From Halichondria panicea (lineage: Eukaryota; Porifera; Demospongiae; Suberitida; Halichondriidae), in NCBI RefSeq assembly GCF_963675165.1, contig NC_087393.1:1141002-1205001 (forward strand): a stretch of 64,000 nucleotides of DNA, given 5' to 3'. The notes beneath the pieces were generated by a model. The model was not told the origin of the DNA and ran no database searches. It saw nothing but the letters and a program-made list of their open reading frames with translations. The translations under genes and the position numbers were made by a program. Below are positions 986 through 64,000 of this stretch, in pieces (positions within the stretch are counted from its first letter, which is position 1; every line of letters starts with the position of its first letter).

Positions 986-3900
986 TCAGCCAGAGATGAC
1001 CCTCTGCAGCATGGTGAGGGCAGTGTCCCCGTTGTCAGCTGGTACCTGCAAGGAGAGACATTTGTAAAGTTCGACATAATTTATAGAATACCGTATAGTA
1101 AACTTTCGCAGAATGACCGGATTTAATTTTATGGAATATCAGCCTTTTTTTATTAAATTTGTGGTGATAAAATTAATTAATGTTTGCGGTACGTGCTGAA
1201 TCAGCGAAAACCGCAAACACCCTTGAAATACACCCGGTTACGGTACATAGATTGTAGTTACAGGAATGGAATATCAACACACAGACAGACATTACACACA
1301 AACCCCTCACACCCACACACCTCACACATAAACCCCCACCCCTCACGCACCTCACACATAAACCCCCCACCCCTTACACACCCTCACCATGTGTCCAGCA
1401 TTGAGTATCCAATAGAAGGCGAGGTTTTTGTACGCCTGATAAAAGCCACCAGTGTGTTTCTTAGTGTGGTCAGTGTCAGGGTAGACAGGCATTTTCTTAG
1501 CAGCCTTAAAACTAGGCAGTCCAGTCCACTTGAGTTTGTCCATCCAAGCCACAGTGCCTGTAGTGATAAAAAGGTAATAATTATATGTAACCAGGAGTGC
1601 ATGAGTATGTAACTATAGCAGGATATAATTATCCCAATTAATTTCAGTGTTCCTTGCATCATCAGCACCTGTGTTCTAGTCCCTGGGTTTTTTCTTGTGT
1701 TTACCAATATGGGAACCAAACACATTCCTAAGTAGACTTCAAACAACTTTAATTGCCAACTCATCATGACCATGCAATAACCAGGGACTTACCTTGAGTA
1801 CAGCAGATGAGGTCCAGCTGGCCATTGTACACAGTCACATTTACCCCCATAGAGAGTAGCTTGTCCACTGTATGAGGGAGGGTGAGCGGGCATAATAAGT
1901 ATCACACAGATACAAGTACACCCCTCCCCACTAGCACAGACCTGTGCTGATGACATCCTTCATGAAGTCCACTCTTTGTTTCTCAAACACTTTCCCAGCT
2001 TGCGCTACAGAAGTCAATTACCTTTTGAATTTGACACAGATTAATCAAAACACAAACCAATCTTCCTAAAAGATACGTTATGAATGTATCAATTGTTACA
2101 AAATCAGGCTGGTCAAATTCAATTTGCAAGTGCAGGTTCTCAAAGATAGTTACTACCAATAGAATTAGGCTTCGATAACGTACAATAATCGAGCAACTCA
2201 CATCCCCAAACCACTTGGTCCGGAATGTGGAGCTTCTGTTTGATTGGTCCGTTCATGAGTTGACTGAGTGATTGGGCATTGTACCGTTGCAGGATACGAG
2301 GGAGGCCACGCCCACTTTGAAGGGACGTTACTTCGTCATCGTTATGACGCAGGATGTTATAGAAGTCCACATCATCAGTCAACTGCGTGGAGGGGGAGGT
2401 AATTGTGGATGGGCAGGGTGTCATACAGGATTTTAAAGTTGGGGAAATAAGAAAAGTAACCGGAAAATTTGGCTAAAAAAAGGTCAATGTTATTTCGATA
2501 CCCTGTTAGTATGTAAAATTGCCAGCTATCAGGGTTTCATACAGGATTTTTAGCCAAGGGGGGGAAATGACGACAGCCGTACGCCGTTGAAAATTTGGGG
2601 GTGGGTCCGGGGGGCAGCCCCCGGAGAAAATTTGGCAGAATGATTGTCTAAGGTGCAATTTTGAGGTTTTGTGATTAAAACTATTCAGTCTAGTTCTTAA
2701 CTGCATTGTACACTTAACTCACCAGAAAAAAAAAATGTTTGAGCAAAGCAGAAAAGGTACTTAAATTGACCTCTAGTGTGTACAGAGCCTATGGTCTCAC
2801 TATGTACATGCTCTGCTTATGTTGTAAGGTTTAAATTTCAAAGGGTATCATAATAATAATTGTATACATGCATTTTGTGTATGTAATCTCCTGTCTGACC
2901 TTTTGAACTGTACCGTGTGCTAGATTGGATATACATGTATGCACTCCTGATGTATGTAAGAGGCTTTTTATCAATTGATACATGTAGAATAATCATTATA
3001 GCTACATGTAGATCTATCTGAATCACTGTACAATTTGGTATGACATCATTAATTTTTCATATTTCCAGGGAGGAATTTTGGCCAGGGGGGAAATCCCAGG
3101 GCCGGCCCCCCTCTGTATGAAACCCTGGCTATAGACACTCAGTCATACAACTACTACTTTTAGGGGGGATATGCCACCTTCCCCCTGTACACACCCTGAT
3201 GGGTATACAGTACTGTAGTAAAAGTTGGTTGAATTTCAATGGCTTGATGATTATATGAGAACTTAAAAGGAGCCCGTTCAGATGGTAAGTAATCTCATAT
3301 TCCAAACAGGAAATTGCACTTTGTAGTGCCCAGCAATATTACACTCGACTCACTGCTTCAATGACATCCTCAGTCTGAGACCAGAGCTCAGTGGACCTGG
3401 CATAGTCTCCATTGTTGAACGCAGCCTCGGTCTGTTTAGAGTAGTTTTGAATACGAGCCAGCTCCGCCTCATTCACTAGCGACTGTGTGTGTGTGTGTGT
3501 GTGTGTGGGAAGGGGATTATGAGGTCAACGCTACACTTCGACTCACTGGTATATTGCAGTACACTCACACAGGAACTAATATTATTCACTGAAAAACCAG
3601 AACTAACCGTTGCAAAAAGATATGGACCCCACATGTTGACGTAATCTATGCAGAGGGTAAGCAAAGAGCACATGAACCAGTGGGAAAGGCATAGCAACAG
3701 TGGCCTGGGGTACTCACCAATAGCAGAGATCCAGCTGTCCCCAAGACCCACACCTTTGAAGACTACTGAGACATTCCCTGCATTGATGGCCTACAAATAA
3801 TCATTAACAATAATAAAAGCTCCTAGAATCGTTAGGAAAGTTAAACTGACCTCTTGAAGCACTTCAGCAAAAGCAGCTGTCATCTTTCCACCGTACGACT

Positions 3901-4661
3901 CACAGAATATGTAGAATGGCATTTTCTGCGTGACCACATGTCATGAGAATATGAAACACTCAAGCTACATCCTCACACATGCCATAATAAATATGTAGAA
4001 AATCACTAATGAAAAAAACAGTGTTCACATTACATAATTGGTACCTGAAAAACAGAGTGTGTTTTAAGAAAGGCACTGAAGAGTGAGAGGAGATCCTTAG
4101 CAATCTCTGCAACGTCAGTGGTATATGCTGAGTCATCATCAACGTAGCTATATCCGGTGCCAACAGGGTTATCGATAAACAGAATATTAGCCACCTGAGT
4201 CCAAGTGGTGTTTCTAGGTCTGAGGTTAATATCCAGCGGTCCAATCTCCATGAAGTTCCCGAAACCAGTCGATGAGCTTCCTGGTCCACCCTAGAGGAAG
4301 GAACAAACAAGACGTGTTATTGCAGCTACATGTAGTGACATTGGGAATTACCCAATTTATGATATAGGTAATAGCAATGTAATGAAGGTTGCATTTTGTA
4401 CGTAAACGTATTTTAATTGTAGTATCACAAAAGGACTGGACTACAACAGAAGTACGTACGTACCTGCAACCACAAGACGAGAGGAACTTGTTCCCTGTTC
4501 TTGGTGCTGTCCGTGCACCCATAGAGCCACCAGAACATGTGTGCAGATGTCCTCACATCCACAAAGCCCCAATCCTCGTCTGGGATGACTGGAGCTGTCG
4601 ACTGGACGCTGCAAACGAGCAGTAGAAGGCTTAATCCAAACACTGCAACTGGAGATACCAT
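986..4661 (-). CDS. SCPEP1: Retinoid-inducible-type serine carboxypeptidase, copy 1 (intact, 435 aa)
   Basis: Peptidase family S10 secretory or lysosomal carboxypeptidase. Exons: 986-1045, 1388-1557, 1793-1867, 1942-2004, 2202-2382, 3354-3482, 3608-3645, 3718-3790, 3851-3925, 4045-4290, 4464-4661 (1308 nt). The leader starts [15 protein letters not shown]. Family marks include MFWWLYG, the oxyanion [15 protein letters not shown] with nucleophile Ser at about 158, NGQLD with Asp at about 353, and AGHM with His at about 415. The length is close to vertebrate SCPEP1 (about 450 aa). All exon lengths match copy 3, so the frame is open. Intron 2202/3354 holds two nested transposons. Just upstream of the ATG the sequence stops matching copy 3 and becomes a dispersed repeat, so this copy has a different promoter. 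Substrates cannot be told from sequence. Confidence 0.9.
2414..3198. mobile_element. TIR element with 5-bp target duplication (outer element) in the SCPEP1 copy 1 intron
   Basis: The ends are inverted repeats starting CAGGGTGTCATACAGG at 2414 and ending in CACACCCTG at 3198. They are flanked by the direct repeat atggg at 2409-2413 and 3199-3203. The same element, without its internal insertion, is at 23449-23651 in copy 3. Copy 2 has a single atggg at 16683-16687 with no insertion, which is an empty site. CAGGG termini with 5-bp duplications recall hAT5-type elements (inference). It is non-autonomous, with no transposase visible. Confidence 0.8.
2530..3127. mobile_element. Nested 598-bp TIR element inserted inside the 2414-3198 element
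   Basis: Begins CAGGGTTTCATACAG and ends with its exact reverse complement at 3113-3127. The 5-bp direct repeat gctat flanks it at 2525-2529 and 3128-3132. The matching position in copy 3 (about 23573) has no insertion. A second family member in opposite orientation lies at 48254-49438. It is non-autonomous. Confidence 0.85.
3484..3508. repeat. TG microsatellite forming the intron 3' end before SCPEP1 copy 1 exon 6
   Basis: On the minus strand this reads as a CA run ending in CAG directly before exon 3354-3482. The microsatellite itself supplies the splice acceptor. The same arrangement is seen in copies 2 and 3. Confidence 0.8.
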
Positions 4662-5628: not shown

Positions 5629-6803
5629 ACACATGCAGTCCAATACATATGCAAGCAAGGGACTCTCCCATGAAGTTTTGTTCAGATTATGGTACACACT
5701 CATGCAGAGTCAGCCTGGGCTCAAAGAAAAAAGAGCTCGTATGATTATAACTAGCAAGCACCCTTATCATATACTTATTCGATTTAAGGCGATACTTATA
5801 AAAAATTACGAAGCCAGAGGTCGGCGTTTCTTTTGGAGTTTGAAAAATTATGATGAAGTCATGGTGTCAAATAATTATCAATGCATGCAGCAGTCACTAC
5901 TTTAGAAGTTAGAAAATTGCCTACAGCTTACTGCACAGTAGCCTCGATCCCAGGCCGAGTTTTCGCTTTTATAACGGTTAGGCGAACAGCTAACTGCACA
6001 GCAACTCTTCATTTTGCATTAACGCGTCGATTAAACGTGCATGTGCTTTAACACAAAAAGATCTTTTGCCACTCACGACGGTGGATAGCAATGGTTGCTA
6101 TTATTTTTTGCTTGAAACCACGCCCCGTGCACAACCTCTATAATTATATAGATCTAGTTCAACGCCGTAAGAAGATATTTTATGGTGCATGGGGGGGGGG
6201 GGCTTGAGGTGAAATTATTCATTTTTATGCTCTCAGAAATAACCGTATATATAGCGGGAAATTTTCGCGGATGCAAATTTTCCCAGTACATAAAATAATC
6301 TGCAGAAGGCATATTACAGTCTGCCCCCAGCCCCCCTGGTTCTTACGGGCATGTGACCATAAGCTTCATGTCGCACAGCTTTGGTGCCTTAACCGAGGCA
6401 TCATCAGCACCCGTAGTGCATTCAATGTAATCAGTATAATTGTATATAATTATACATGCAGCAAATTTAGCCACTTACTTCTCCATCAGGGATTGCAGCA
6501 CTGCTAGCAGTAGCTTGTTAACATTAGCTGCAAGTATATAGTGGGATATGCAAATGATGACTCACATGCAACTACAAATTACTGTGGATCACCAAGATAC
6601 TCATGCATACATGTAGAGCAATCACCCCGTGCGTTGTGAACTTCATCGCATAGCAGCAAAACCGATACAATAACTTTTTACCATAATGACCTTAGAATTA
6701 TCACAAATCAGGAATGATTGCATGTGAATCTAAAGCAACAATTAGAAAACAGTGTTTTTTATCGCCTTCAAAGATCGCCTATTATACAAGTTTCAACTAT
6801 ATT

Positions 6804-7953: not shown

Positions 7954-10183
7954 TCAAAAAATTAGGGCTGCCAAGATCTCTACGTCATCAGCTGTTCCAT
8001 GCTAATCCACAAGTTGTGGCGCAATGGACATGCACTGCATGTGTCAACAGACACTGTGGTACAAGGATCTATATCAAAAGGCTGGTTAGATAGATTTCTT
8101 TTTTACACTCAGCCAATGATGCATGGTGTTAGTTTCGCCTGCATGAACTCTTGTGGTGTTGGTGGAAGTGTACTTACATGGCTCATCTTGTTCCAGCTTG
8201 GCTTCTGGCTGCATATCTGGTTCTTTTTGTTGCTCATCTTGTTGCTCCAGGGCCTTCTTCAACTGATAATAGTATTGCTCACGAACTGCATGTAGTGAAT
8301 TAATTAACATCGAACATGTGAAAATTAAAGGTGTTACCTTCACGTTAATTATATATAGTGGTGGAAGGACTTTACCTGGGCCATCTTGTTGCCGCTGGGC
8401 ATCCTTCCGCTGATAATAGTATTGCTCACGAACTGTATAATTACTGTTTATTCTCACGTAACAACAAATTATGTGAACAACTATAATGGTGTCACTTTTG
8501 CATGAATTCCAGTAGTGTTGTTAGTGGAAGGGATATACTTACCTGGGCCATCTTGTTGCTTCAGGGCGTTCTTCAGCTGATAATAGTATTGATCACGAAC
8601 TGCATGTAGTAAATTACATGCATATATCGAACATGATTAATGAGGTGTCACTTTAGCATGAATTTTAATCTGTGGTGTTAGTGTAAGGTACACTTATATG
8701 CCTGGGCCATCTTGTTGCTCATGAGAAGGCCAGATATTTATAGTATTACTCACAAACTGTAATAGTTATGACAATTATAATGTTGTGAACCAACTAAAGT
8801 TACTTTTGCATGAATTCTAACTATATTATAATATCACAGTAAAAACAGATTCGTTACAAACATCTCAAATAAAATGCGAAATTTAATGTAGAAATGACAT
8901 AAATTTCTGTCCGGCATTTTAACACTAAAATACGATGATGCATCCCATATATATAACATATGTGTTTTTGCATATAGTTAGACACTTGTAGTATAGACTA
9001 TATTTAGTTAGGCCTAGGTCATTAGAGTTATTTATACCTATAATTTCCTAGTTAGTCCTGTTTTGTGTGTATTTAAGTCAGTGCATGGGCTGTGTATTAT
9101 ATTCATGCAGTTTTACTGCCATGATCTTGTTGCTTACTGAACCCCTATCAGTTTAGCTAGTGACTCAGCTAGGCTAACACACTACACACTGTTTTGGAGG
9201 TGTCTGTGGGATTTAGAAGCCCAAAGGCACTGATTTAGTATCCCGAGCGTAGCGAGGGTACACTACAAGTGGCTGAGGGCTTCTAAATCACATGGACACC
9301 GACAAAACAGTGTCTAGATACTAGTGCGCATGCACAAACCGCTTGATTACAATATACATGCATGATTATTTGACAACGGAATACTATATGTATTGTATAC
9401 TAAGTAAATTGGACTTAGTATACCTGCTCTGAGGCACTTTTCCCATGTACTTCCCATGTAGATCTTATCAACTAGTGTCTAAAGTGATGTTGTATATATA
9501 ATTATATACATATATACTTACCAGGGCCATCTTGTTGTATCTGAGCATTCTTCTGCTGATAATAGTATATTTGCTCACGAACTGTATAAAAATAATAATT
9601 CTCATATTCTCATACAACAACTATATCGAACATGTGAACCGACTAAAATTAATGGTGTCACTTTCGTATGAAATAATTATACTGGCCAGTATACTGTGGT
9701 TTGGCAGATAAAATTGTATCACACTTAAATAGAGCAGAATGACTTCATTATCCTCGAGACAAAACTGCAAAATAGATTTGAAGTAAGGTCGTTTTTTTTA
9801 GCTGCGACTATTTTCTGAAATGCAGCCACCTCGCTATTCCAGCCATGCAAGCTACACTGTCCCAAGGGTGACTGGATTAACGAGAGTCTGTATATCATAT
9901 ATATATACTTGCAATGGGCCATCTTGGGATAATAATTATAGTATTGCTCACGAAATGTAGTAAATTTTATGACAATTATAGTGAACCAACTAAATAAATG
10001 ATGCATGCATGCATGTTATCTACTTTGGCATGAATTCTATAGTGGTGTTGGTGTAATGTATATACAATCATCATGATATATTATACCTGGGCCATCTTGT
10101 TGGTTTGAAGAGAGAGCAGAAGAGGCCACGGCCATATACAGGAGAGATAGCAAAGCCACACTGGCAATCATTGAAATCTTCAT
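7954..10183 (-). CDS. Predicted secreted protein made of repeated 19-20-codon symmetric exons (about 138 aa)
   Basis: No known family recognised. Exon 1 (10087-10183) encodes a signal peptide starting MKISMIASVALLSLLY, then SSNQQDGPG. Downstream exons 9522-9581, 8543-8599, 8376-8432 and 8178-8285 each start in phase 1 with V-R-(E/D)-Q, keep YYYQ and QQD, and end in phase 1. The last is longer and acidic (DMQPEAKLEQDEP). A possible last exon, 7954-7991, would add SDDVEILAALIF and a stop; this is the least certain part. Total 417 nt. Decayed extra exons lie at 8702-8759 (in-frame stop) and about 9911-9955 (no AG acceptor). Exons plus flanking introns repeat every 147-167 bp at 8178-8760. The product would be a small secreted Q/Y/D-rich repeat protein. 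Start and frame are well supported; expression is unknown. Confidence 0.6.
9186..9313. mobile_element. Palindromic MITE in an intron of the repeat-exon gene
   Basis: A 128-bp inverted repeat. The left end ACACTGTTTTGGAGGTGTC pairs with the right end GACACCGACAAAACAGTGT, and the inner arms GATTTAGAAGCCC and GGGCTTCTAAATC also pair. No coding capacity. Superfamily not assigned. Confidence 0.75.
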
Positions 10184-12449: not shown

Positions 12450-13497
12450 CAGTGGCGTATACAATGGGGGGCTTTGGGGGCTTGAGTACCCCCCTGTCCT
12501 CCCAGACAACCATGAAACTAATTCTATCACTCAGTAGCTAGCTAGCTAGCTAACTGTGCAGCTCCAGAGATACATGCAGCTCTATCTCACGGTTACAAGT
12601 AATGACCACGCCCAATTGAGCATGCGCAATCAGCATTGCCATTGCCATTCCAATGTTGTTATGTAATGCATAATAGCTGATCAAGATCCTCTGCACTCTC
12701 CCAGTCACCTCTTGCTCCACTGAGAGATACTGCAAAGCAATGACTAACACTAGAATTACTGGACATCCCCATTGCAGTGATTGACCAGTTTGCTAGGATG
12801 TACCCCTGGAGAATAGTGCATGGAGATCCTACAAGATAACTGACTCATAATTATGTCTTATTATCACACTATGCATGTACCGTATAGCGCGAAATTTTCG
12901 AGGGGCTTAATTTTCGTGGATTTCGTGGGTTAGCAATCCTACACGAAAATTAAGTCCACGAAAATCGTTCTTTACCTGCTATAACGTGCAAGATTTAAAG
13001 GCGTGGCTTCCGGTAAGCAGTCATTCCGCGAACATTGTGCAACGAAATAGTTTTAGAGGCTAATCCACGAAATATAAGTGCCTCGAAAATTTCGCGCTAT
13101 ACGGTATTAGATCCCATTTGAATGTATTTAGCAGGGAACTATGAGCTATAGTACCGGTACTATAGATTCTGGGCTACAAACCACAACATTATACATTTTG
13201 ATACACATAAAATTATTGTAGCTAGATGCTTTGTGTAGTAACATAGTAACAGAACTAGAATGGAAGAGAGAAGCTCTAGAGTATTTTTGGCTTTGTTCGA
13301 GAGTAGTAGGAGCCGCTCGTTTCTTGGGCAGTGTGCTGTACTTTTTTGCTGCAAGGCTGCATGGGGGAGGAGCTGAATGTATGAAAGACGTGCTGCAATA
13401 AATGCAGGGGCATAAAATCGCGTGTGCTATGCACGCAGCCCCATTTTTTTCTGTGCTCTTGAGCACCCTCCTGCTTCAATCTCTAGAAACGCCCCTG
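12450..13497. mobile_element. Possible hAT-like element with a nested MITE
   Basis: Left end CAGTGGCGTATACAATGGGG and right end (reverse complement) CAGGGGCGTTTCTAGAGATT share CAG-GGCGT, a hAT-type terminus. Only a 5-base motif (cttcc) is shared at the flanks, and the inverted repeats are imperfect. No transposase visible. The MITE at 12880-13104 would be nested within it. Weak. Confidence 0.3.
12880..13104. mobile_element. TA-flanked MITE, CCGTATAGCGCG family, copy C
   Basis: A 225-bp element. The ends CCGTATAGCGCGAAATTTTC and its reverse complement form perfect terminal inverted repeats, with TA on each side. This suggests the Tc1/mariner group (inference). Two more copies are at 51171-51396 and 51493-51728. 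Confidence 0.85.
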
Positions 13498-17641: not shown

Positions 17642-17724
<83 letters not shown>

Positions 17725-17735
17725 CGTGTGTGTGG
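16984..17735. repeat. Interrupted TG microsatellite in SCPEP1 copy 2
   Basis: TG runs at 16984-17037 and 17645-17735 correspond to one run in copies 1 and 3. They are separated by about 600 bases of unrelated sequence. On the minus strand the left run forms the CA-type acceptor of exon 16853-16981. Confidence 0.8.
17038..17644. mobile_element. About 600-bp insertion inside the TG run; possible non-LTR retrotransposon 3' fragment
   Basis: Absent from copies 1 and 3. Read on the minus strand it ends in a T/G-rich tail (repeats of TTTG near 17210-17225) and contains short open stretches, but no clear reverse transcriptase motif. Truncated LINE copies with simple-repeat tails look like this, but a segmental insertion is equally possible. 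Confidence 0.35.
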
Positions 17736-18850
17736 GTGGGGGGTGGGGGATTATGAGACGCTATATACACTTCGGCCAGACTGGTACAGTGTGTATTGCA
17801 GTACTCACACAGGAACTATCACTGAAAAATCAGAACTAACCGTTGCAAAAAGATACGGGCCCCACATGTTGACGTAATCTATGCAGAGGGTAAGCAAAGA
17901 GCACATGAACCACTGGGAAAGGCATAGCAACAGTGGCCTGGGGCACTCACCAATAGCAGAGATCCAGCTGTCCCCAAGACCCACACCTTTGAAGACTACT
18001 GAGACATTCCCTGCATTGATGGCCTACAAAGAATCATTACAATACTAGAATCATTACAAGCTACTACAATCGTTAGGAAAGTTAAACTGACCTCTTGAAG
18101 CACTTCAGCAAAAGCAGTTGTCATCTTTCCACCGTACGACTCACAGAATATATAGAATGGCATTTTCTGCGTGACCACAGGTCATGAGAATATGAAACAC
18201 TCAAGCTACATCCTCACACATGCTATATTAATTATGTAGAAAATCACTAATGAAAAAAACAGTGTTCACATTACATAATTGGTACCTGAAAAACAGAGTG
18301 TGTTTTAAGAAAGGCACTGAAGAGTGAGAGGAGATCCTTAGCAATCTCTGCAACGTCGGTGGTATATGCTGAGTCATCATCGACGTAGCTATATCCGGTG
18401 CCAACAGGGTTATCGATAAACAGAATATTAGTCGCCTGAGTCCAAGTGGTGTTTCTAGGCTTGAGGTTTATATCCAGCGGTCCAATCTCCATGAAGTTCC
18501 CGAAACCAGTCGATGAGCTTCCTGGTCCACCCTAGAGGAAGGAACAAACAAGACGTGTTATTGCAGCTACATGTAGTGACATTGAGAATTACCCTATTAT
18601 GATTATATAGGTATCAATAGCGATGTAATGAAAGTTGCATTCTGTACGTAAACATATTTTAATTGTAAAGGACTGGACTACAACAGAGGTACGTACCTGC
18701 AACCATAAGACGAGAGGAACTTGTTCCCTGTTCTTGCACCCATAGAGCCACCAGAACATGTGTGCAGATGTCCTCACACCCACAAAGCCCCAATCCTTGT
18801 CTGGGATGACTGGAGCTGTCGACTGGACGCTGCAAACGAGCAGCAGAAGG

Positions 18851-19152
18851 CAGTACACACAGATCTAGACTGTGTGAATTTCTACAGGATGAATTAGACC
18901 ACTAGCCAGCTATAGATCTAGTGGTAATTCATCCTGATGTACTGGCCTACCCGCTTCTACACCGGTAGGCCTCTGGCTCTAGCTCTAGCATAAGTGTACA
19001 GCTAGCTAGCCGGCTAAAGGTACTAGGCCTGTGTACAGCTTTGTTTATTGATAATCGAAAAACGACCTGCACACACATATACACATAAAGAAAAAATTTA
19101 TATTGAAAATGCACATGCACACAAATAAATAAGAAATTCTATTATGCTGGTT
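18851..19152. other. Short spacer between block 2 and block 3
   Basis: No coding exon seen. It contains a small inverted repeat, gatgaattagacc and ggtaattcatcc around 18880-18935, and an A-rich stretch at 19090-19110. It marks the junction where block 2 homology stops inside SCPEP1 exon 1. Confidence 0.5.
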
Positions 19153-21477
19153 TCACGAGGTACAGACATCATTGTCAGGTGTAAGACTCCTGTGTCCTAA
19201 TGAAGAAGTGGATGTCCCACGAGGATGATGAAGATCATTGTTTACAAGAGTTTGTTGTCTGCAGGACAACTCTGGTGCTGACCCTTGGACGACAGTAGAG
19301 TGATTTACCGCTGAACTCGACTCAGAGAGCGAGCGATGTAGGTCTGTCATTTTATTGCCTGTGGGGCAGTAAAAATAATTCATTATAAACCATCACAGCT
19401 ATAACCAATTACATCTAGTGAATTCATTTTACCTTGGTTTTCACTCCTCTGAGTCGCCTGTGCTATAAGCGGACGTTGGCTAAGAGCCCTAGAAATAGTT
19501 TAAGTATACAATTAGTATACACATCTGATCAAATGTGCATGAAATTAACAGAGATGTGAATGCTATAGACTGTACATGTATCATGGCTTACTTATTTCTA
19601 GACTTCACCCAATAGCACAAGCACAAGCAAACTGCAATGAAGACGACAGTCATGACAATACATGTAGGTAAACCCAATCCAATTAAAAGGCCAAGGATGA
19701 GTTGTTGTTGACGAGGATCGATCGAATCACCCGGTGGAGAAGACGTCTCATTGGTCGGCTTTTCTTGAGGGATAGTTGATTCTGGACATAAGAAGTCAGG
19801 ATTCAACTCGAATGTGGCCAGAAGATATGTTTGGTTGCTACTGAATTGCTGTGAGTGGCAAGCAAGGTCTTGGACGACAGAAACAGTTGAATTACTGAAC
19901 AGTAACACATGACCATCAATCAGCTGGTGATTGATTTGCGCATCGTCAGCGAGAATGATTGTTTGGTTGTCCAGAAGGTTTGTGAGTGCAATGCTACCGT
20001 CTCTCGAAGTACCGATAAAATACGTGGCATCTTCAATCGTTGCACAGTCACCGACGTATCTCTCCGACAAGTTCAATGGATGAGGGATCACATGATCTAA
20101 CAGTCCGGGCGATACCAGCGCTAAAGTTTCACTTCGTTGCTCAATATAAACACCTTGAGGGCAGTGAAACCTTGTTTGAGTTCGCTTAAAGCCGACTCTC
20201 ATTCCCCCACGATATATCACGCTGATGTTGATTAGATTGTTGTCTGAGCAATACACTAGCAGATTATTTAAGTTTCTCGATTGCCTCACGTCCGTCACAT
20301 TGTTTCCAAAGCATACACTCCTGTTGGTGTCAGCATAAAAATGTTCAGCCGATGAGAATGAATTACCATAACCGGGTAGAACAGTGAATAAGACGTCATC
20401 GTCAAACCAGATCACATGACTGTCACTAACTAAATCAACACTAGAGAAGAATATCGGAGAGAGGCCAGTAGAGTACGATTGATACGGGGTGTCAATATTG
20501 TCGTTCAGCAGCGATAGGGACGACTGGTTCAAATCCTCAAAGTCGATGTGAACTTTGAACAACCATAAATCTACTTTAAAATGAGCAAGTGGAGTGAAGC
20601 GAACACACGATACCACACGTCCATCGTCTGATGGGCTTTTTGCGATAGAGGTGAAGCTACAGTTGACCTCTTCTTGCGGGCCAAGTATGAACTGGTCTAT
20701 TAGGGTCAGCCTATCACTGTTTATGCCAGCAAATAGTGCCAGAGCAATTCCGGCTGAATGGGGGACTATAGCCACTTCTCTGTTGTTTGGAGCGTTTTTG
20801 ATTAGGGTAACACGACATCGCCACAATCGATCACCACAAGTGCTAGGGAGATATACCCCAGGGAATATTGCGTCACGTTGTATAGAGATGTTAGTTGAGA
20901 TTAGACGAGCGGATACCACCAAATCATTTGAGGACTGTTGAACAGTAAATTGGGTACCTAATAGAGACGAACCTGCAGTGAGAGAGAATACTGCATGAAT
21001 GGGCTCGTACCAGCTGGGCGTGGCCCGGCCTCTGTTCTGACGGATGGCCGGGGGACACACTTATAGAGGATTTGTACTGCTTTGTGCAATACTGCTCTCT
21101 GTATTAAGCGTCATGAATAAAATTATAAACTGGCTATGAATATTGTTATTTTAGAATACTGCAATCTGATTGGGTTACACTCCTCAGTGCAGCAGTACAA
21201 ATGTTATATAAGCGTGTCCCCCGGCCACCTGTCAGAACGGGAGCAGGGCCATGCCCAGCTAGGCTCGTACTGTACGTCTGATAATTACATGTACGTAGAT
21301 CTAGTCTCTTCAAGTTCTATTTATGATCTACATGATGTACACGTACGTACACGTACTGTACTGTGGTTGAATCTAATTTCTATACACTAGTACATGCAGT
21401 AAGTACGTACCTTGTTGAGTTTGAGCATTGACCACAGCAGTAACAGAAAACAACAACACAGTAGGAAAGAGTTCCAT
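19153..21477 (-). CDS. Orphan type I single-pass membrane protein (588 aa)
   Basis: Not recognised as any known family. Exons: 19153-19358, 19433-19488, 19592-21029, 21411-21477 (1767 nt, phases agree). Exon 1 encodes a signal peptide (MELFPTVLLF, then AQTQQ). Exon 2 encodes an ectodomain of about 440 residues with many N-glycosylation sequons (NIS, NCS, NQS, NRS, NVT, NST, NET), scattered cysteines, and one strongly hydrophobic segment at about 465-497 starting LILGLLIGLGLP and followed by KSRNK. Exons 3-4 encode a serine-rich cytoplasmic tail of about 90 residues. The exon 2 acceptor used is AACAGAG before GC, because CAG eight bases earlier is out of frame. It lies directly downstream of SCPEP1 copy 3 in the same orientation and is duplicated with it. 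A cell-surface receptor or adhesion role is only a guess. Confidence 0.75.
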
Positions 21478-22028
21478 GACAGATTACCCACACGCTGATA
21501 CGTACTTCTGTATAATTTGCTGGCCACTGCACTCACTATAGCTAGCTATACGGTACTTGCTTTATTATAATTATTATAGCCCAGCCATAGATATAATACT
21601 ATAAATTACAGCTGAGTAGCCTCGATCTCCAATCAGATTGCAGTATCTCAAGGGGATTGATCACACCCACTCAACTGTACCACGTGTGAATTTTGCACAC
21701 GTGAGAGGCGAGGCCAACACCCACTTTAATAAATGATATTCATCGCTATTGGTTAGCACCCACATAGAATGAATTATGATTTCATGATACTATTGCGTAA
21801 CAGGCCAGAACAAAACTCAATTAACTGTGGATAGGCTTGATTCCCGACCTCCTTCAAGGAGGGCGGCGGCGCTCGACTACAACTTTCCCATGTACAGCTT
21901 TTACATATTGCACAATCATCATTATCACTATAATTATCAGAGTTCATTAGCCACAAAAACATGGAAACACAGAAATTCTTGAATGATTTAGAGTCTTGTT
22001 ATTATGAATCTATACAATGTTTGTGTAG

Positions 22029-25000
22029 TCAGCCAGAGATGACCCTCTGCAGCATGGTGAGGGCAGTGTCCCCGTTGTCAGCTGGTACCTGCAAGGAGAG
22101 ACATTTGTAAAGTTCGACATAATTTATAGAATACCGTATAGTAAACTTTCGCAGAATGACCGGATTTAATTTTATGGAATATCAGCCTTTTTTTATTAAA
22201 TTTGTGGTGATAAAATTAATTAATGTTTGCGGTACGTGCTGAATCAGCGAAAACCGCAAACACCCTTGAAATACACCCGGTTACGGTACATAGATTGTAG
22301 TTACAGGAATGGAATATCAACACACAGACAGACATTACACACAAACCCCTCACACCCACACACCTCACACATAAACCCCCACCCCTCACGCACCTCACAC
22401 ATAAACCCCCCACCCCTTACACACCCTCACCATGTGTCCAGCATTGAGTATCCAATAGAAGGCGAGGTTTTTGTACGCCTGATAAAAGCCACCAGTGTGT
22501 TTCTTAGTGTGGTCAGTGTCAGGGTAGACGGGAATTTTCTTAGCAGCCTTAAAACTGGGCAATCCAGTCCACTTGAGTTTGTCCATCCAAGCCACAGTGC
22601 CTGTAGTGATAAAAAGGTAATAATTATATGTAACCAGGAGTGCATGAGTATGTAACTATAGCAGGATAAAATTATCCCAATTAATTTGAGTGCTCCTTGC
22701 ATCATCAGCACCTGTGTTCTAGTCCCTGGGTTTTTTCTTGTGTTTACCAATATGGGAACCAAACACATTCCTAAGTAGACTTCAAACAACTTTAATTGCT
22801 AACTCATCATGACCATGCAATAACCAGGGACTTACCTTGAGTACAGCAGATGAGGTCCAGCTGGCCATTGTACACAGTCACATTTACCCCCATAGAGAGT
22901 AGCTTGTCCACTGTATGAGGGAGGGTGGCGGGCATAATAAGTATCACACAAGTACACCCCTCCCCACTAACACAGACCTGTGCCGATGACATCCTTCATA
23001 AAGTCCACTCCTTGTTTCTCAAACACTTTCCCAGCTTGCGCTACAGAAGTCAATTACCTTTTGAATTTGACACAGATTAATCAAAAGACAAACCAACCTT
23101 CCTAAAAAATACGTTATGAATGTATCAATTATTACAAAATCAGGCTGGTCAAATTCAATTTCAAGTGCAGGTTCTCAAAGTTAGTTATTACCAATAGAAT
23201 TAGGCTTCGATAACGTACAATAATTGAGCAACTCACATCCCCAAACCACTTTGTCCGGAATGTGGAGCTTCTGTTTGATTGGTCCATTCATGAGTTGACT
23301 GAGTGATTGGGCATTGTACCGTTGCAGGATACGAGGGAGGCCACGCCCACTTTGAAGGGACGTCACTTCGTCATCGTTATGACGCAGGATGTTATAGAAG
23401 TCCACATCATCAGTCAACTGCGTGGAGGGGGAGGTAATTGTGGATGGGCAGGGTGTCATACAGGATTTTAAAGTAGAGGGGAGAAATAAGAAAAGTAACC
23501 AGAACATTTTGCTAAAAAAAAGGTCAACTGTTATTTTGATACCCTGTTAGTATGTAAAATTGCCAGCTGTAGACACTCAGTCATACAACTAGTACATGAA
23601 TGCACATTTTAGGGGGGGGATATCCCCCTTCCCCCCCTGTACGACACCCTGATGGGTATACAGTAAAAGTTGGTTGAATTTCAATGGCTTGATGATTTTA
23701 TGAGAGCTTAGAAAGGAGCCCGTTCAGATGGTAAGTAATCTCATATTCCAAACAGGAAATTGCACTTTGTAGTGCCCAGCAATATTACACTCGACTCACT
23801 GCTTCAATGACATCCTCAGTCTGAGACCAGAGCTCAGTGGACCTGGCATAGTCTCCATTGTTGAACGCAGCCTCGGTCTGTTTAGAGTAGTTTTGAATGC
23901 GAGCCAGCTCCACCTCGTTCACCAGCGACTGTGTGTGTGCGTGTGTGTGTGTGTGTGTGTGTGCGTGTGTGTGTGTGTGTGTGTGTGCGTGTGTGTGGGT
24001 GGGGGGTGGGGGATTATGAGACGCTATATACACTTCGGCCAGACTGGTACAGTGTGTATTGCAGTACTCACACAGGAACTATCACTGAAAAATCAGAACT
24101 AACCGTTGCAAAAAGATACGGGCCCCACATGTTGACGTAATCTATGCAGAGGGTAAGCAAAGAGCACATGAACCACTGGGAAAGGCATAGCAACAGTGGC
24201 CTGGGGCACTCACCAATAGCAGAGATCCAGCTGTCCCCAAGACCCACACCTTTGAAGACTACTGAGACATTCCCTGCATTGATGGCCTACAAAGAATCAT
24301 TACAATACTAGAATCGTTAGGAAAGTTAAACTGACCTCTTGAAGCACTTCAGCAAAAGCAGCTGTCATCTTTCCACCGTACGACTCACAGAATATGTAGA
24401 ATGGCATTTTCTGCGTGAACACATGTCATGAGAAATATAAAACACTCAAGCTACATCCTCACACATGCTATAATAATGTAGAAAATCACTAATGAAAAAA
24501 CAGTGTTCACAATACATAATTGGTACCTGAAAAACAGAGTGTGTTTTAAGAAAGGCACTGAAGAGTGAGAGGAGATCCTTAGCAATCTCTGCAACGTCGG
24601 TGGTATATGCTGAGTCATCATCGACGTAGCTATATCCGGTGCCAACAGGGTTATCGATAAACAGAATATTAGCCGCCTGAGTCCAAGTGGTGTTTCTAGG
24701 TTTGAGGTTAATATCCAGCGGTCCAATCTCCATGAAGTTCCCAAAACCAGTCGATGAGCCTCCTGGTCCACCCTAGAGGAAGGAACAAACAAGACGTGTT
24801 ATTGCAGCTACATGTAGTGACATTGAGAATTCCCCAATTACGATTATATAGGTACCAATAGCAATGTAATGAAGGTTGCATTCTGTACGTAAACATATTT
24901 TAATTGTAAAGGACTGGACTACAACAGAGGTACGTACCTGCAACCACAAGACGAGAGGAACTTGTTCCCTGTTCTTGGTGCTGTCCGTGCACCCATAGAG

Positions 25001-25135
25001 CCACCAGAACATGTGTGCAGATGTCCTCACATCTACAAAGCCCCAATCCTCGTCTGGGATGACTGGAGCTTTCGACTGGACGCTGCAAACGAGCAGCAGA
25101 AGGCTTAACCCAAATACTGCAACTGGAGATGCCAT
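22029..25135 (-). CDS. SCPEP1: Retinoid-inducible-type serine carboxypeptidase, copy 3 (intact, 435 aa)
   Basis: Exons: 22029-22088, 22431-22600, 22836-22910, 22978-23040, 23237-23417, 23800-23928, 24104-24141, 24214-24286, 24336-24410, 24527-24772, 24938-25135. The signal peptide begins [15 protein letters not shown]. Ser at about 158 (CESYGGKM), Asp at about 353 (NGQLD) and His at about 415 (AGHMV, then PADNGD) are all present, as is GGPGGSS. Close vertebrate matches are the segments [22 protein letters not shown] and [15 protein letters not shown]. The start codon lies 122 bases from the Chibby start on the other strand, so the two share a short head-to-head promoter. The protein differs from copy 1 by a few substitutions. 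It should act in the secretory pathway or lysosome. Confidence 0.92.
23449..23651. mobile_element. TIR element with atggg target duplication in SCPEP1 copy 3 intron
   Basis: A 203-bp counterpart of the outer element at 2414-3198. Begins CAGGGTGTCATACAGG, ends GACACCCTG, flanked by atggg at 23444-23448 and 23652-23656. It is not split by the second insertion seen in copy 1 and is absent from copy 2. Confidence 0.85.
23930..24000. repeat. TG microsatellite forming an acceptor before SCPEP1 copy 3 exon 6
   Basis: TG-rich run with interspersed TGCG units, followed by a G-rich stretch to 24011. On the minus strand it ends in CACAG at 23929, the 3' splice site. Confidence 0.8.
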
Positions 25136-25257
25136 TTTCTTGCTGATTTGGAAAAACAACGTGAGCCACACCCACATTTTTTATTTGATGGGCGTGTCTC
25201 TACTAGTTTACATGGAAACTAGGTTCTCTTTCACACAAGTTTTTCACCTACAAAGAG
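25136..25257. promoter_or_regulatory. Short bidirectional promoter region between SCPEP1 copy 3 and Chibby
   Basis: Only 122 bases separate the two opposite start codons, so both 5' UTRs and core promoters must fit or overlap here. No TATA box is obvious. Called from geometry, not from a recognised motif. Confidence 0.5.
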
Positions 25258-30426: not shown

Positions 30427-44372
<13,946 letters not shown>

Positions 44373-44819
44373 ACTTCTGAGCTATAGTTCTACCTCTTTG
44401 CAATTTAGGGTGTGTTGTAGTAGTAGTTGAACGCTTTACAATCAGTTCTCTCAAACCCTTGAACACTACGTCTTTGATATCGAATAAGATGATCTGCAAG
44501 ATAAGCCCTGTTTACCTAAATGTGTGGGCGTGGCACGTGGTTCTCAGAAATGTGTTGTAACCACAACATGTAAACAAGATGGTCTCTCAACTCTCATTGT
44601 ACTTTTCACCTTACAATGTACTTGAAAAAGCAGAAATGCTTTTTATTTGACCTCAAGTGTGTAGACTAGTGTACAGAGCCTATAGTGTGTTCCCACTATG
44701 TACACTGTAGCTGCATGGTGGTGTGTTTAGGTGTTTGCATTCAAGTGATGTGAAGAGGGTTGTAAATAAAGTTATATAAAATCACCAATAAAACATAATA
44801 ATCGGAATATTCATGCTAG
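44373..44819. other. Spacer between BTAF1 3' end and myosin 5' end
   Basis: 447 bases between two genes on the same strand, so it must hold BTAF1 3' UTR and the myosin promoter. Bases 44625-44720 resemble the interior of the TIR family at 2740-2815 and 48560-48640, which looks like an old solo fragment. No exon seen. Confidence 0.55.

Positions 44820-64000
<19,181 letters not shown>

Follow-up and report, generated by a model that had tools for sequence, protein, structure and literature searches.

A gene on the minus strand of a 64,000-nucleotide stretch of Halichondria panicea DNA (the window, C17:1141002-1205001, in a genome of 131.5 Mb and 39 contigs) is, with a probability that we place just above even, a live-looking gene from a multigene family whose secreted repeat proteins have a structural role and gain and lose their repeat units by exchange. 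The gene family is new and its style of evolution a familiar one; so far it is known from this genome alone. Most probably it is restricted to a lineage and its secreted products are structural, a role suggested by composition and analogy. If so, they point to an undescribed extracellular protein family, a single genome displays several growth stages of a repetitive secreted family, and the proposal that recurrent introns drive repeat uniformity can be tested beyond spider silk.

Structure of the window gene

The gene runs on the minus strand, and its exons and dead unit copies are listed in Table 1; the end points of both dead copies were set by eye. A preliminary description of this DNA had proposed a signal exon followed by units in phase 1-1, and that architecture was borne out. 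The leader of exon 1 is hydrophobic and is a predicted signal peptide, and four live unit exons with GT/AG borders follow it in frame, coding for V-R-(E/D)-Q-(I)YYYQ...QQD. Each unit exon has a CAG acceptor and a phase 1 start, and ends in phase 1 at GTAAGT or, once, GTAAAG. The unit length of 57-60 nt given earlier holds for three exons (60, 57 and 57 nt) and fails for the last, at 108 nt. Live and dead copies do stand side by side, and the duplication of introns every 147-167 bp agrees with measured cassette spacings of 147 and 167 bp. Recurrence of the unit exceeds chance: a tblastn search with unit 2 hit, at E <= 0.01, its own position and three more in the window, while 20 first-order Markov resamples gave 0 matches.

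Table 1. Exons and dead unit copies of the window gene, in order of transcription (window coordinates)
Feature	Position	Strand	Description
Exon 1	10087-10183	(-)	Predicted signal peptide MKISMIASVALLSLLYMAVASSA + LSSNQQDGP; ends in phase 1, G/gtataatat
Dead unit copy	9915-9955	(-)	Acceptor AG gone; truncated (3' part missing), without donor
Unit exon 1	9522-9581	(-)	60 nt, (V)REQIYYYQQKNAQIQQDGP
Dead unit copy	8702-8756	(-)	55 nt; stops in frame; GC donor replacing GT
Unit exon 2	8543-8599	(-)	57 nt, (V)RDQYYYQLKNALKQQDGP
Unit exon 3	8376-8432	(-)	57 nt, (V)REQYYYQRKDAQRQQDGP
Unit exon 4	8178-8285	(-)	108 nt, acidic extension, (V)REQYYYQLKKALEQQDEQQKEPDMQPEAKLEQDEP
Terminal exon	6475-6527	(-)	(S)NVNKLLLAVLQSLMEK, then stop; beyond the range 7954-10183

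The six exons are intact and give a modelled product of 143 aa. A 3' end at 7954 and a product of 138 aa, as put forward earlier, were not upheld. The automatic gene model placed the donor of exon 1 21 nt further on; the tandem copy of the gene on C17 lacks 4 nt inside this longer extension, which favours the donor after 10087. Within the intron that separates unit exon 1 from unit exon 2 is an inverted repeat with 50-bp arms that are 82% complementary (9182-9317), possibly a small mobile element.

Terminal exon and 3' end

Relatives of the window gene on contig C6 end in a conserved exon coding for VDELLLAVVQSMLDE or ADSLLLAVLQSLLDK and a stop, and homology with these last exons identified the terminal exon of the window gene, which is in the right phase and has a good acceptor upstream. 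Protein comparison alone is weak here (tblastn E 0.056). At the DNA level, a 30-nt pattern taken from the window exon and searched through the 131-Mb genome with 3 mismatches allowed gave 11 matches, 9 on C6 and 2 on C17, against 0 in the control. All 11 sit at terminal exons of family loci; the pattern misses one known copy, in the gene at C6:1834335. A terminal exon resembling LLLAVLQSLL/MLDE was found within 6.5 kb in 11 of 19 loci, the window gene included, in a count that excluded the tandem C17 copy, covered only 3.0 to 5.4 kb at three loci and discarded three out-of-frame motif matches. Eight of the 19 had no terminal exon at the tolerance used; the locus near 0.30 Mb on C6 has a diverged one, and none was found at the seven C6 loci at 1.06-1.18 Mb. 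The automatic gene models end wrongly in several genes, that of the window included, so terminal exons were assigned by homology, and a long exon modelled automatically at C6:1835453 is false.

In the family terminal-exon copies compared, a GT(G/A)AGT donor overlaps the stop codon, and about 110 bp beyond, behind (G/A)TGCAG, a second conserved stretch occurs in 7 of 10 C6 genes compared; it was not seen at the window gene. One example is the terminal exon at C6:1815778 with the 250 bp after it, where the second stretch stands behind a GTGCAG that follows the stop codon. The second stretch may be a last exon of these genes, or an exon of their 3' UTR, and since it accompanies a donor at the stop, the true 3' end could hold one more exon.

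A gene family on two contigs

The preliminary description recognised no homologue, a statement that does not survive within the same genome. The family's signal exon reads MK(I/V)S(M/V)IA(T/S)VALLSL. A 27-nt signal-exon pattern, searched through the whole genome with up to 3 mismatches, found 20 places (0 in controls), and the window gene matched it without mismatch. Two of these are on C17 and eighteen in three regions of C6, with seven at 1.06-1.18 Mb, ten at 1.79-1.88 Mb and a single one near 0.30 Mb. The sequence immediately 5' of the start codon is, by eye, common to the copies. Two copies, C6:1150489 (where the start codon reads ATT) and C6:1851376, yielded no gene model. Members range from genes that have only one or two units, through the window gene with four units and its dead copies, to arrays of some ten exon-intron cassettes with ordered intron types; in others the repeats lie within one exon.

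The second C17 gene lies 20.9 kb from the window gene and differs from it by 6 bases and 3 indels over about 5 kb, all of them outside exons, which are identical in the two copies. The pair arose either by duplication in tandem not long ago or through the assembly. Window segments 1-2527 and 21044-23568 are direct copies, 98.4% identical at an offset of 21.0 kb, and because this offset is close to that of the genes, the window appears to be part of a segmental duplication in tandem.

Elsewhere in the window, three related segments of about 1.2 kb (3484-4661, 17665-18851 and 23930-25104) are 91-95% identical and are perhaps a small family of their own; one overlaps an open frame at 24776-25180 (-) that matches serine carboxypeptidase (Peptidase_S10) just under the cut-off. 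Open frames at 33254-44381 (-) match myosin heavy chain (Pfam Myosin_tail_1, Myosin_head and Myosin_N), and a SNF2-related domain lies at 50533-50979 (-). A further inverted repeat at 12878-13106, with 45-bp arms that are 91% complementary and 139 bp between them, is perhaps a small mobile element.

Growth of the arrays

The earlier proposal of growth by tandem copying of symmetric exons along with their introns is supported, and exon number varies among relatives as it had suggested: four live units in the window gene compared with 11, 11 and 8 unit exons in C6 genes B (C6:1834335), C (C6:1863809) and D (C6:1870489), where the count is of exons matched by a regular expression and leaves out deviating copies such as C6:1872696. 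Measured from the matched TTCGTGAG to the first GTAAGT, all 30 unit exons of B, C and D are divisible by three (60, 63, 93, 111 or 114 nt). Among 29 of these units, every gap run in exons was of 3 nt (36 and 16 pairwise runs, representing few events), whereas only 61 of 281 and 19 of 75 gap runs in introns were divisible by 3. In short units, 10 of 63 exon sites vary against 55 of 145 intron sites; in long units exons and introns do not differ in variability (13/114 and 14/126). Exon identity of short units within genes is 97.8%.

The 27 introns compared from the three genes fall into three types, distinguishable by length and by the preceding exon, with two of the types among short-unit introns. 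Identity between introns of the same type is 96.9% within a gene (51 pairs) and 95.6% between genes (82 pairs), and between different types 82.7-83.3%. The types recur, but the first two values are so close that they do not tell present-day homogenisation from recent copying of whole arrays; entire arrays could be recent copies, or conversion may act across genes. The introns run c c b c c b c c c c in B, c c c c b b b in D and a b a b c a b c a b in C, where the block c a b is present twice with intron identities of 99-100%, the pattern expected when cassettes are duplicated in groups. Multiplication within a single exon has occurred as well: C6:1814365 and similar genes have a 642-nt exon made of 45-nt repeats (SNYYYKAQMQQDGGP). 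In the window gene, 5 of 6 intron stretches find a counterpart among C6 unit introns (best rows 74-87% over 43-96 nt), and on this basis the C17 and C6 cassettes are of common origin.

Selection

All pN/pS values come from pairwise and hence non-independent counts. For units they were 0.53 in the window gene, 0.26 for three C6 units, 0.56 when the B/C units were included, 0.65 for C17 against C6 and 0.76 over 15 hand-picked units; for the signal exon the value was 0.87 (19 loci) and for the terminal exon 0.79 (11 copies). Terminal exons differ at 15.8% of sites, compared with 36.7% in the intron behind. The frame is maintained and amino-acid constraint is mild; because pN/pS is only mildly below 1, either protein-level constraint is weak or conversion is dominant.

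Product composition and search for relatives

Six modelled products are of low complexity, with 16-21% Q, 10-17% Y, 0-1 Cys and a net charge of -2 to -25. Amphipathicity was no better than in shuffled sequences in 15 of 16 tests. A structure model of another subfamily predicted an all-beta protein and was not used for any conclusion.

Relatives were sought in prokaryotes, viruses and one animal genome, the source genome. A Pfam-A hmmscan of four products gave nothing above the curated cut-off (best E 0.0051, FHOD FH3), and for the 143-aa product the best match was the GIT coiled coil (E 0.0011; 19.1 bits against a cut-off of 28.7); both were below their cut-offs and were taken as chance matches of low-complexity sequence. 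Against solved-structure sequences the best E values were 0.49 for a C6 composite and 0.37 for the window product, and none was accepted. The window product had 50 pattern places in prokaryotic contigs and 12 in viral contigs, with 0 confirmed in either; the C6 composite had 0 pattern places in the viral contigs. Listings of the sponge, exon-duplication and tyrosine-rich literature contained no published account of such a family.

Discussion

In the mechanism that we propose, units would be added and removed as nearly identical cassettes of exon and intron undergo unequal crossing-over or gene conversion with one another, and phase symmetry would keep every array in frame. The predicted mature chain, rich in Q and Y, nearly free of Cys, net acidic and with Gly-Pro turn motifs, could act outside the cell as a structural polymer, whether as a component of matrix, adhesive or fibre. 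Tyr (as dityrosine or DOPA) or Gln-Lys bonds are possible cross-links, and the constant C-terminal segment may serve as an assembly or sorting piece.

Other readings of the same gene have to be weighed against this one. The product might be a precursor of many small secreted peptides, with units released by cleavage, perhaps after the single Arg that opens the unit (VR/EQ, VR/DQ, AR/QQ), where an N-terminal pyroglutamate could form. Unit exons on C17 and in several C6 subfamilies do begin with R-(E/D/Q)-Q, and the signal exon is conserved while the remainder is variable. Two dibasic places occur in the window product (RK in unit 3 and KK in unit 4) and the long units of gene C carry KK, but such places lie away from unit borders and are absent from 9 of 17 automatically modelled products. 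Arg is missing from most of the 15-residue repeats inside the exon of C6:1814365, and no Gly precedes a basic residue in the window product, which therefore has no amidation signal; we regard a peptide precursor as improbable. A diversified secreted immune or recognition family, variable in repeat number and order in the style of the echinoderm Sp185/333 (Trf) proteins, would account for clustered paralogues that differ in unit number and order, for inactive copies and for the recent tandem duplication. Units within an array are, however, near-identical rather than diversified (the 97.8% of short-unit exons within genes), and with pN/pS below 1 there is no excess of amino-acid change, so that this explanation appears quite doubtful.

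Least probable in our estimate is a reading of the C17 copy as a C6-family relic, either decaying or unexpressed. Two of its six unit copies are dead, its introns match C6 unit introns at only about 74-87% and over short stretches, and an intron of 1.65 kb precedes the terminal exon. Yet all six exons kept GT/AG borders and contain no stop, and the two C17 copies show no exon difference, although they are too young for this to weigh strongly. A live-looking member of a structural repeat-protein family is the reading that we prefer.

Comparison with known systems

The echinoderm Sp185/333 genes form clusters, code for secreted repeat proteins and combine a leader exon with variable elements, features that the present family shares; here, variability lies in exon number as well as within one large exon. 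SCPP/casein genes begin with a signal exon, followed by small symmetric exons of phase 0. The window gene resembles them in having small symmetric exons after a signal exon, and differs in that its unit exons are in phase 1-1. Exon duplication and loss and fast-evolving secreted proteins are a further likeness, as described in parts of PMC13367325. No SCPP match appeared in the Pfam results for the four products and the 143-aa product. Resilin has a 15-residue repeat, GGRPSDSYGAPGGGN, within one exon, according to the portion of PMC7794388 that deals with it, and in C6 relatives, too, a Tyr/Gly/Pro/Ser repeat of 15 residues lies within an exon, GGPSNYYYKAQMQQD being one instance. The order of residues and the Q content are not the same, no GGRPSDSYGAPGGGN repeats were seen in gene models inspected by eye, and the chitin-binding domain that also marks resilin had no match in the Pfam results for the four products; the resemblance is likely convergence.

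The gene organisation is closest to that of spider silk genes with repetitive introns, of which passages of PMC9779670 describe the flagelliform spidroin and Argiope MaSp2. No spidroin family, N- and C-terminal domains included, appeared in the Pfam-A hmmscan at E <= 10 for the four products and the 143-aa product, and the family here has no poly-Ala core, its units being of 19-38 aa and rich in Q and Y and its products a few hundred residues long. The likeness, as far as those passages extend, is in clustered genes with a repetitive core between non-repetitive ends, and in small exons with recurrent near-identical introns that form higher-order ensembles in which intron type follows exon type. 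In the clustered MaSp2 genes, introns are homogenised, sometimes in alternation, and are alike within a gene and divergent between genes (PMC9779670, in the sections concerned), whereas the introns here are 95.6% identical between genes compared with 96.9% within them. According to the same sections, the authors are aware of no further eukaryotic gene in which two homogenised intron types alternate. Here, strict alternation of two types is confined to the first four introns of gene C, and the next six form a three-type cycle. An independent silk-like system in an animal lineage, in which clustered Q/Y-rich structural proteins have arrays lengthened and kept uniform via ordered recurrent introns, is a tentative reading that we consider rather unlikely; if true, it would provide a second, unrelated case of alternating homogenised intron types beside Argiope MaSp2.
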